From assembly GCF_041260155.1 (NCBI RefSeq), contig NC_091932.1, forward strand, positions 5,293,501 through 5,357,500: a stretch of DNA of 64,000 bases, in the 5' to 3' direction. Each line of letters starts with the position of its first letter. Within the stretch, counting starts at the first letter, position 1. The notes under the pieces are model-generated. The model had not been told where the DNA came from and searched no databases. It worked only from the letters and a program-made list of their open reading frames with translations. Below are positions 44,212 through 62,868 of the stretch, piece after piece. The stretch is from Ptychodera flava (Eukaryota; Hemichordata; Enteropneusta; Ptychoderidae). The translations under genes and the position numbers were made by a program.

Positions 44212-44322
44212 ATGGTGGAAGTCATCGACATGATTCTTCTACCCTTTTTAATGATATTGGTAAATGAGGCGACGGCGAGCACAGCGTGTGAACTTTGGCA
44301 TAATACGACATCTATGAGCGAG
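44212..44322 (+). CDS. Gene C exon 1: signal peptide
   Basis: Starts [20 protein letters not shown]; the hydrophobic run and the A-T-A-S site fit a signal peptide. It ends in phase 0 at a GTAAGT donor. Any 5' untranslated exon is not visible. Confidence 0.75.
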
Positions 44323-62300: not shown

Positions 62301-62868
62301 AAGTAATTATGTGCGAGCAAATCTAATTCCATTTTCCGAATATATCTTATCTATTCTAGCTATCATTGAGAATATCGTAACAGCTATCAGGGAAAGTCGA
62401 CGAACTATTCTGGTTCTATCTCCATCATTTGTTGAGAGTGACTGGTGTGACTATGAACTTGCCTTGGCTCACACAGAAATGATAAGTCTTCGACAAAAAC
62501 TCATTCCAATAATGTTTGATGACATCACCAGAATGGCAAACTTAAGAGCCAGTTTGCAGTCGATCCTGAACACCATCACGTACATCGAGTGGCCGCGAGA
62601 GGGCGCCGACAGAGATAGGGAGAAATTTTGGAAAAAATTGGTTAGGGCTTTGCCCAGGAAGAGAGAGGCAGACTTGGCCAAACGGAAGGTTAAGCGACGT
62701 TGTTGGTGTGATTTTAGTCACATGGCGGCGTCAATTTTGATTTGCATAGATCGATTGTGTCAAAAAATAAGGAGGAAGCGTGTTTATGTCAAACTTAATG
62801 CTGACATTGCGGATGATGATATACCATTAATTCAGAATGTTGGGCAAGAAGCACCTCCTAATGACTAA
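44212..62868 (+). CDS. Gene C: cadherin-like/EGF/Ig/EGF/HYR transmembrane TIR receptor (17 exons, 868 aa)
   Basis: Exons: 44212-44322, 45446-45532, 45583-45677, 49351-49444, 49583-49630, 50886-51008, 51581-51719, 52388-52500, 53760-53949, 54384-54512, 55514-55688, 56422-56546, 57452-57577, 59563-59802, 60208-60366, 61212-61355, 62360-62868. Every intron is GT/AG and all junction phases agree (2607 nt with stop). Order: signal peptide (1-28), degenerate cadherin-like repeat (about 38-175), unrecognised ectodomain (187-333), EGF (334-376), Ig (379-474), EGF (477-518), HYR (521-598), membrane helix (about 608-630), TIR (about 655-795), basic tail. TIR domains recruit MyD88/SARM-type partners at the inner membrane face, so this is probably an innate-immune or developmental receptor. 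At least eight N-glycosylation sequons lie in the ectodomain. Intron 2 is only 50 nt, the weakest point of the model. Paralogue names are not assignable. Confidence 0.88.
44454..44625. repeat. Palindrome in gene C intron 1
   Basis: ttttagctccatggtagctg with caataattgtagccttggtt on the left pairs with aaccaaggctacaattattg and a repeat of ttttagctccatgg to the right. The arms are about 78 bases, GC-rich in the middle (cttctgtcgtgcggctcg / cgagccgcacgacagaag), with a short loop near 44535. It begins 132 bases after exon 1. Confidence 0.85.
45159..45324. mobile_element. 166-bp MITE with CAGTG termini in gene C intron 1
   Basis: cagtgtttttgttaaggc and, at the far end, ccttagcaaaaacactg form inverted termini. 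ATTCT flanks both sides (45154-45158 and 45325-45329) as a direct repeat. Inside, ttaccggg(g)ttccc occurs about three to four times. The CAGTG ends resemble hAT elements, though the duplication is 5 bp, not 8. It ends about 120 bases before exon 2. Confidence 0.7.
45446..51008 (+). CDS. Gene C exons 2-6: degenerate cadherin-like repeat
   Basis: Exons 45446-45532, 45583-45677, 49351-49444, 49583-49630 and 50886-51008. Spliced, the sequence has the landmarks of a cadherin (EC) repeat in order: [12 protein letters not shown] (N-terminal E/P-V-G-T), [18 protein letters not shown] followed by [10 protein letters not shown] (the L-D-Y-E...Y-x-L-x-V-x-A segment), and [17 protein letters not shown] in place of the usual D-V-N-D-N-x-P-x-F. 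The calcium ligands (LDRE, DxNDN) are lost or changed, so calcium binding is doubtful. Membership is inferred from motif order, not from a search. Confidence 0.6.
47150..47880. repeat. Diverged tandem array, period about 155 bp, in gene C intron 3
   Basis: About five units, each with a version of ttcattaaatatgcaaatta, ggaattggctg, taatgactttcaataatgtt, tcatcaatgtacataacaag and tttggtcaagtcaattcaga. The units differ by substitutions and small indels. No coding frame persists. Confidence 0.75.
48318..49213 (+). mobile_element. 5'-truncated Rex1/CR1-like LINE in gene C intron 3
   Basis: The translated remnant has [17 protein letters not shown] (after the lost F-A-D-D box), then, one frameshift later, a thumb region with LRRLKSF and a C-terminal stretch with [20 protein letters not shown] before the stop, typical of Rex1/Babar-type CR1-like elements. 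The tail ends in aacaataaaaagtatataaa. It is a dead copy, sense to gene C. Confidence 0.75.
51581..53949 (+). CDS. Gene C exons 7-9: unrecognised beta-rich ectodomain
   Basis: Exons 51581-51719, 52388-52500 and 53760-53949. The segment is about 147 residues with alternating hydrophobic residues (for example [20 protein letters not shown] and [11 protein letters not shown]) and several N-glycosylation sequons. It could be a second, more diverged cadherin-like or Ig-like unit. I do not recognise a family. Confidence 0.6.
53236..53345 (+). repeat. Dispersed repeat, related to 57794-58070
   Basis: ttaggctgcgttcgaaaaaa with later attgaaatctttttttcag and cctcaaaaattttcaagccc recurs, interrupted, at 57794-58070. 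Similar pieces with ccccctcc and aaattttcaagg occur at 55080-55145 and 59306-59350. Confidence 0.4.
54384..54512 (+). CDS. Gene C exon 10: EGF-like domain 1
   Basis: A single phase 1-1 exon with eight Cys in the pattern [15 protein letters not shown] ... [13 protein letters not shown]. This is the eight-Cys, laminin/MEGF/Tie-type EGF module with the closing G-W-x-G-x-x-C. Confidence 0.9.
55514..56546 (+). CDS. Gene C exons 11-12: Ig-like domain
   Basis: Exons 55514-55688 and 56422-56546, joined in phase 2. The first holds TLWCAHYNF and VKWYHNGS (B-strand Cys and C-strand Trp); the second holds [18 protein letters not shown] (the D-x-G-x-Y-x-C motif). The intron splits the Ig fold internally, as in many vertebrate and invertebrate Ig receptors. 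Confidence 0.88.
56683..56751. repeat. Palindrome of the gatccgtcgct family
   Basis: agatccgtcgcttgagggcg pairs with the region cctcgagcgacggatct. A single unit is at 18690-18760. It lies in gene C intron 12. Confidence 0.7.
56853..56968. repeat. Duplicated block A with (ATCT)n
   Basis: gaggccctcaatctaaaaca followed by ctacctacctaccttcctac and (ATCT)n is repeated essentially unchanged at 57824-57993. The two copies flank the second EGF exon of gene C. Confidence 0.9.
57452..57577 (+). CDS. Gene C exon 13: EGF-like domain 2
   Basis: A single phase 1-1 exon with eight Cys: [17 protein letters not shown] ... [12 protein letters not shown]. It is placed between the two copies of the duplicated (ATCT)n block, and the (AT)n tract begins at its donor. 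Confidence 0.9.
57580..57733. repeat. (AT)n microsatellite in gene C intron 13
   Basis: More than 70 AT units, with one phase slip near 57701, starting within a few bases of the exon 13 donor. Tyr-Ile ORFs on both strands are artefacts. Confidence 0.96.
57824..57993. repeat. Duplicated block B with (ATCT)n
   Basis: Second copy of the 56853 block, with a longer (ATCT)n tail (about 26 units). Confidence 0.9.
58300..58368 (-). repeat. SINE-like fragment with a B-box-like motif
   Basis: On the minus strand GGTTCGAATCC fits a pol III B box, next to a hairpin (cagtattgtcacaattgacaatactg, split by ATTG). No A box or full cloverleaf can be drawn, so this is not called as a tRNA. Confidence 0.3.
59563..59802 (+). 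CDS. Gene C exon 14: HYR (hyalin repeat) domain
   Basis: A phase 1-1 exon of 80 codons. It has the HYR landmarks [28 protein letters not shown] and [19 protein letters not shown], with the two conserved Cys. HYR domains are Ig-like adhesion modules common in echinoderm hyalin and complement-related proteins. Confidence 0.93.
60208..60366 (+). CDS. Gene C exon 15: transmembrane helix and juxtamembrane segment
   Basis: The helix runs about [20 protein letters not shown] and is followed by the basic stop-transfer sequence GYRYKREI. Phase 1-1 exon. Confidence 0.9.
61212..62868 (+). CDS. Gene C exons 16-17: cytoplasmic TIR domain and tail
   Basis: Exons 61212-61355 and 62360-62868. Box 1 is YDAFVSV. 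Box 2/BB loop is [12 protein letters not shown], in which the usual Pro of R-D-x-x-P-G is Ile. Then come [20 protein letters not shown] (the TIR alphaC region with W-C-x-Y-E) and box 3, EKFWKKL. A Lys/Arg-rich tail of about 70 residues follows box 3. The intron falls directly after the BB loop. The family match to IL-1R/TLR-type TIR domains is clear. Confidence 0.93.

Follow-up and report, generated by a model that had tools for sequence, protein, structure and literature searches.

A gene on the plus strand of the window analysed here (64,000 nucleotides of the Ptychodera flava contig NC_091932.1, GC content 37.7%) runs from 44212 to 62868 and codes for a single-pass TIR receptor, as the initial annotation had proposed and as Pfam on an 823-aa model and the aligned hemichordate relatives confirm. 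No description of its cadherin/EGF/Ig/EGF/HYR/TIR order was found in the literature searched, which lay mostly outside the subscription journals; the architecture is real and conserved and, within these bounds, apparently undescribed. At the level of sequence, the gene structure is established by homology; the domain order, the transmembrane segment, the TIR boxes and the conservation are established as well. The protein belongs to an enteropneust family of single-pass receptors and is probably best understood as a variant of the molluscan EGF-TIR receptors whose ectodomain has been enlarged by exon shuffling.

The homologue-guided model comprises 15 exons, each of which was compared on its own with 10 homologues at E ≤ 1:

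44212..44322, plus strand: exon 1, with the start codon and a hydrophobic N-terminus that is likely a signal peptide (model and hydrophobic stretch; 0/10 homologues when taken alone)
45446..45532, plus strand: exon 2, first part of the cadherin-like domain (4/10 homologues, best E 0.034)
49343..49444, plus strand: exon 3, middle of the cadherin-like domain (5/10 homologues, best E 1.2e-4)
50886..51008, plus strand: exon 4, end of the cadherin-like domain and linker (9/10 homologues, best E 1.3e-7)
51581..51719, plus strand: exon 5, unnamed beta-rich region (frame and splice sites; 1/10 homologues)
52388..52500, plus strand: exon 6, unnamed beta-rich region (100% in P0001; 0/10 other homologues when taken alone)
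53760..53949, plus strand: exon 7, last part of the unnamed beta-rich region (in P0001; 4/10 homologues, best E 1.1e-5)
54384..54512, plus strand: exon 8, EGF 1, a phase 1-1 module (10/10 homologues; intron phases)
55514..55688, plus strand: exon 9, first half of the Ig domain (6/10 homologues; in P0001)
56422..56546, plus strand: exon 10, second half of the Ig domain (6/10 homologues; 100% in P0001)
57452..57577, plus strand: exon 11, EGF 2, a phase 1-1 module (10/10 homologues; 100% in P0001)
59563..59802, plus strand: exon 12, HYR domain, a phase 1-1 module (Pfam HYR 4.6e-17; 7/10 homologues)
60208..60366, plus strand: exon 13, transmembrane helix and juxtamembrane EDDDGR, the R coming from exon 14 (hydrophobicity; 100% in P0001)
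61212..61355, plus strand: exon 14, first part of TIR, from box 1 to the BB loop HHRDFIIGE (6/10 homologues; Pfam TIR)
62360..62868, plus strand: exon 15, rest of TIR and the C-terminal tail, which carries DDIPLI and ends in the stop codon at 62866-62868 (6/10 homologues, best E 1.6e-50)

This model replaces the 17 exons and 868 residues of the initial annotation, which gave no exon list. A 17-exon chain of 868 residues can be forced by splice-score chaining; it takes exons near 45583, 45961 and 52035 and leaves out 49343-49444. That reading was dropped because its extra exons (45583-45691, 45931-46052 and 52000-52142) are each matched by 0/10 homologues at E ≤ 1, whereas the omitted exon is matched by half of them, with 49% identity in the best match. 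Once 49343-49444 is included and the three unmatched stretches are removed, exactly one stop-free in-frame chain exists among the splice sites tried, and the annotated relatives of the resulting 823-aa protein are 794-838 aa long. These relatives carry 'NERFAVSSNGVISVAKLLDYD...' after the first cadherin exon, the counterpart of which is placed by tblastn at 49349-49465 in the window. The donor of exon 3 scores 6.1 (above the 99th percentile of GT sites in the window) and its acceptor 0.0. Chains of 905-924 residues, built on splice scores alone, were likewise rejected after exon-by-exon comparison with the homologues. Exons 1 and 6 find no homologue when taken alone and exon 5 finds one, so that the N-terminal third is supported in part by frame and splice sites (frame and splice scores for exons 1 and 5) and by P0001 for exon 6.

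P0001 is a public, uncharacterized P. flava protein of 637 aa, with 99% identity over 71% of the first, 906-aa model. Compared with the locus exon by exon, it shows 91-100% identity in tblastn pieces, the lower values occurring where pieces overrun exon ends. It lacks the cadherin region, begins with 'MG' followed by exon 52388, and unites EGF, Ig, EGF, HYR, transmembrane segment and TIR in one product at the window locus. Two ATGG|GT donors occur in 43000-52400, with scores of 3.2 at 51008 and -6.4 at the other; as only 51008 is a good donor of this kind, exon 51581-51719 is apparently skipped in P0001.

The domain content was assessed by the profile search of the spliced protein that the initial annotation had called for. 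In the 823-aa model, Pfam lists TIR (3.2e-25) and HYR (4.6e-17) above the curated cut-offs and, below them, EGF_Teneurin (3.5e-05), Ig_3 (6.8e-05), I-set (8.3e-05) and Cadherin (0.0018), the last being absent from the list of the earlier 906-aa model. Mapped by exon, a hydrophobic start (residues 1-37) is followed by the cadherin-like domain (about 34-125), an unnamed region (about 126-288), EGF 1 (289-331), Ig (332-431), EGF 2 (432-473), HYR (474-553), the transmembrane and juxtamembrane segment (554-606), and TIR with the tail (607-823). The strongest hydrophobic windows begin at residues 562-567, and all 11 N-glycosylation sequons lie upstream of the transmembrane segment. Phase-1 introns border EGF 1, Ig, EGF 2, HYR, the transmembrane segment and the first TIR exon (exons 8-14); phase-1 module borders are the pattern expected from exon shuffling. 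Pfam finds no tyrosine kinase domain in the window protein, and no LRR in it or in P0002-P0006 (E ≤ 1) or in P0010 (E ≤ 0.1).

The cadherin-like assignment made in the initial annotation holds at the level of the family profile, which matches CELSR1 (1.7e-17) and cadherin-23 (1.9e-15), chains that contain several repeats and thus have inflated whole-chain scores. The match to CELSR1, CDH23 and PCDH15 falls at positions ~33-130 and corresponds to one repeat only; for the window protein alone, the Cadherin match stays below the Pfam cut-off. The impression of a Tie-like EGF/Ig part was also justified, since Tie2 matches the family profile at 1.1e-19. There are two EGF-like stretches, and their cysteine pattern is kept across the family, with an EGF match below the curated cut-off in the window protein. 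The region between the cadherin-like domain and the first EGF is predicted to be beta-rich in AlphaFold models of P0002 (pLDDT 66.0, pTM 0.38) and P0011 (pLDDT 66.5, pTM 0.50), both of low confidence with a mean pLDDT of 66. For P0002, Foldseek ranks tandem cadherins at the top (5.8e-11, TMq 0.10); for P0011 it ranks Ig domains of contactin-1 there (1.7e-9, TMq 0.17). The rmsd is very large in each case, and the VIA-align rows for both models fall mostly on the Ig domain. At a guess, the unnamed region might be a second, degenerate cadherin-like domain.

The same order of cadherin-like domain, unnamed region, EGF, Ig, EGF, HYR, transmembrane segment and TIR is common to six other annotated proteins: P0002, P0004 and P0010 of P. 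flava, P0003 and P0006 of Glandiceps talaboti, and P0005 of Saccoglossus kowalevskii. All are annotated as uncharacterized, with 37-46% identity to P0004 (alignment A2), and they align with the window protein over the ectodomain, transmembrane segment and TIR, the TIR of P0010 being divergent in its last part. Pfam Cadherin is found at E ≤ 0.01 in four of the six (P0002, P0005, P0006 and P0010), and the cadherin-like domain of P0003 and P0004 is visible by alignment only. Protein searches and alignment bear out the proposal of a single gene with this domain order, an arrangement shared among three species of enteropneusts. No non-hemichordate protein among those returned by word-based searches has the full order. 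Among further relatives, P0018 is a 450-aa partial protein that extends from the end of the Ig domain to TIR, and P0011 consists of the ectodomain only. P0002 and P0004 are found on contigs of equal length, and so are P0003, P0011 and P0018, which suggests that these genes are clustered.

Other proteins and elements accompany this family. P0007 of P. flava (717 aa) is an ectodomain paralogue with Mucin2_WxxW in front (1.4e-16), HYR and no TIR; it could be secreted, or its gene model could be incomplete. P0012 of G. talaboti (591 aa) has EGF-Ig-EGF repeats, several further EGF-like stretches, a transmembrane-like stretch and a short tail, without TIR or kinase; with P0013, a kinase receptor of amphioxus, it shares 34% identity along 261 residues. 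Within the window, the minus strand carries a decayed paralogue (41492-38512) in head-to-head orientation to the receptor gene; its five pieces are nearest to P0004 (47-88% identity) and cover the cadherin-like and unnamed regions only, in-frame stops occur in the last piece, and comparison of this locus gave no match to EGF, Ig, HYR or TIR. By eye, a Ty3/gypsy-type retrotransposon occupies 21795-26579 on the plus strand, with gag-like, integrase-like and then reverse-transcriptase and RNase H-like ORFs; the position of integrase ahead of reverse transcriptase presumably recalls Gmr1-like elements. Two plus-strand ORFs resemble, also by eye, fragments of a non-LTR reverse transcriptase, one within an intron of the receptor gene (48210-49026) and the other just 3′ of it (63054-63617). 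Intron 1 contains a near-perfect inverted repeat (44468-44609; 67-nt arms, 97% complementary, separated by 8 nt), and intron 2 contains diverged direct repeats spaced by ~134-147 nt (47395-47897).

The TIR domain is of the TLR type. With the family profile, the best matches among solved structures are TLR1/2/6 chains (TLR1 6.3e-33, TLR2 2.3e-29), followed by IL1RAP (4e-21), SIGIRR (4.5e-19) and MyD88 (4.4e-9), which supports signalling through TIR contacts. The first non-hemichordate TIR matches are the EGF-TIR proteins P0019-P0023 (41-53% identity, 3.4e-50 to 2.8e-41; sources include Haliotis rufescens, Haliotis rubra, Potamilus streckersoni and Physella acuta), and LRR-TIR proteins come next. 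In a TIR tree of 21 rows, the seven hemichordate rows other than P0010 are grouped (80/80), as are the five EGF-TIR rows (80/87); the branching order of hemichordate, EGF-TIR and LRR-TIR sequences is not recovered, and P0010 stands outside on a long branch. The juxtamembrane motif EDDDG[KR] is present in 5/5 EGF-TIR rows and in 5/8 family genes, the exceptions being P0004, with EDDDQR, and P0006 and P0010, without the motif; none was seen at this place in the LRR-TIR rows of the alignment. As regards a SARM1-like, NAD-cleaving TIR, the window TIR has the WCxYE glutamate, a residue that is likewise general in TLR TIRs. An exact [DE]xxxL[LI] endocytosis motif lies in the conserved PL[IL] tail of four of the eight family genes (window, P0002, P0003 and P0004) and elsewhere in the tail of P0006; an endocytic reading was set aside, as the motif evidence was too weak.

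The BB loop, on which adaptor binding by TIR domains usually depends, is altered in most of the family. Its proline is replaced in 7/8 family TIRs and kept in 9/9 comparison rows (P0019-P0027), three further rows not matching the pattern and the insect protein P0015 having a shifted proline. Canonical adaptor binding is therefore not assured, and the family could consist of non-canonical or inhibitory receptors that act as decoys or use a TRIF-like instead of a MyD88-like adaptor. TLR3, which also lacks the BB-loop proline, uses TRIF. However, the remaining TIR boxes are all conserved, P0006 retains the proline, so that its loss is not universal, and prediction of an adaptor from residues is weak; this explanation is distinctly unlikely. 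Another possibility is a growth-factor-type receptor, in which a Tie/RET-like ectodomain and its ligand have been retained, the kinase has been swapped for TIR, and a host protein is sensed in development, wound repair or regeneration instead of microbes. The amphioxus protein P0013, with a RET-matching kinase, shares its ectodomain block with the family, Tie2 matches the Ig/EGF part of the family profile, and P0012 has a similar ectodomain with neither TIR nor kinase. Yet the EGF-Ig-EGF block could have arisen repeatedly, defence is the commoner role of TIR domains, and the P0013 model begins within the ectodomain, which leaves the cadherin part outside the comparison. A receptor of this type is a minority prospect.

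Two explanations would deny that the receptor exists as described. The joining of two genes by annotation might be suspected from introns of up to 4.8 kb, from the transposon remnants and decayed paralogue close by, and from the missing cadherin exons of P0001. A wrong fusion of neighbouring genes was rejected on family evidence, because the order is common to the six other proteins in three species; moreover, P0001 itself connects EGF to TIR at the window locus, which makes such an artefact very improbable. It is just as hard to sustain that the locus is a decaying copy from which the full receptor is no longer made: the apparent exon skipping in P0001, with loss of the signal peptide and cadherin part, and the poor conservation of exons 1, 5 and 6 taken alone would fit decay, but a stop-free 823-aa frame is present and the TIR exon matches P0004 with 87% identity in a stretch of 102 residues.

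The enlarged EGF-TIR receptor thus remains the preferred reading. Its ectodomain would have grown by exon shuffling, partly from modules also found in an amphioxus receptor tyrosine kinase. The receptor presumably resides at the cell surface, where the ectodomain could bind a surface, matrix or soluble ligand of host or microbial origin; the cadherin-like, Ig and HYR modules point to protein or surface ligands. Binding would bring two TIR domains together, and the pair would recruit a TIR adaptor, leading to transcription for defence or in response to tissue damage. To call the receptor 'adhesion-coupled' and 'innate', and to have it signal through TIR adaptors, as the initial annotation did, is something we infer. 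More speculatively, and with rather less than even chances, a deuterostome ectodomain (beta-rich region and EGF-Ig-EGF), carried on a kinase in amphioxus and on TIR in acorn worms, may represent an adhesion or growth-factor sensor rewired to an innate-type pathway; the acorn-worm family, with its altered BB loop and maybe an unusual adaptor, would then form a new functional class sensing the state of tissue or matrix. As EGF-Ig-EGF is common to kinase and TIR receptors, such rewiring is directly testable.

Two types, LRR (Toll) and Ig (IL-1R), dominate the usual view of TIR receptors. A conserved family in which a TLR-like TIR is combined with cadherin-like, EGF, Ig and HYR modules points to further deuterostome TIR receptors built by exon shuffling. 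The distinct class proposed in the initial annotation stands insofar as no protein of the same order was seen outside hemichordates among those returned; the family is not isolated, however, as the TIRs of EGF-TIR proteins are closest by search score and an amphioxus kinase has the same block. Toll-like receptors (TLR1/2/6/10) share the TIR domain and provide the best solved-structure matches, but differ from the window protein and its relatives in having LRRs. The IL-1 receptor family also has Ig outside and TIR inside, with IL1RAP among the TIR matches, whereas the window ectodomain is not Ig-only, since its one Ig is joined by cadherin-like, EGF and HYR modules. The likeness to Tie2 (the angiopoietin-1 receptor) concerns its Ig/EGF stretch; Tie2 is a kinase receptor with another ectodomain order. 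Non-hemichordate matches to the family profile are few, and P0013 of Branchiostoma lanceolatum (2.3e-46) precedes distant cadherin, TLR, EGF and HYR proteins. Labelled RET, it consists of a beta-rich region, EGF, Ig, EGF, EGF, transmembrane segment and kinase, the latter having its best match in one chain named EGFR (4.4e-49), with RET chains next (1.5e-45). Its EGF-Ig-EGF block is 37% identical to P0002 over 190 residues, in a comparison that covers the region downstream of any cadherin part; it differs in its kinase in place of TIR, its extra EGF and its lack of HYR. The EGF-TIR receptors P0019-P0023, four of them from named molluscs, have no cadherin, Ig or HYR (Pfam, E ≤ 0.1) and keep the BB-loop proline, but they share with the family an EGF-type ectodomain, one transmembrane segment, a TLR-like TIR and the juxtamembrane motif. 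EGF-TIR is a named class in passages of the reports on oyster (PMC4346834) and on Aplysia, with two genes (PMC9334734), and the window protein likewise unites EGF and TIR within one protein.
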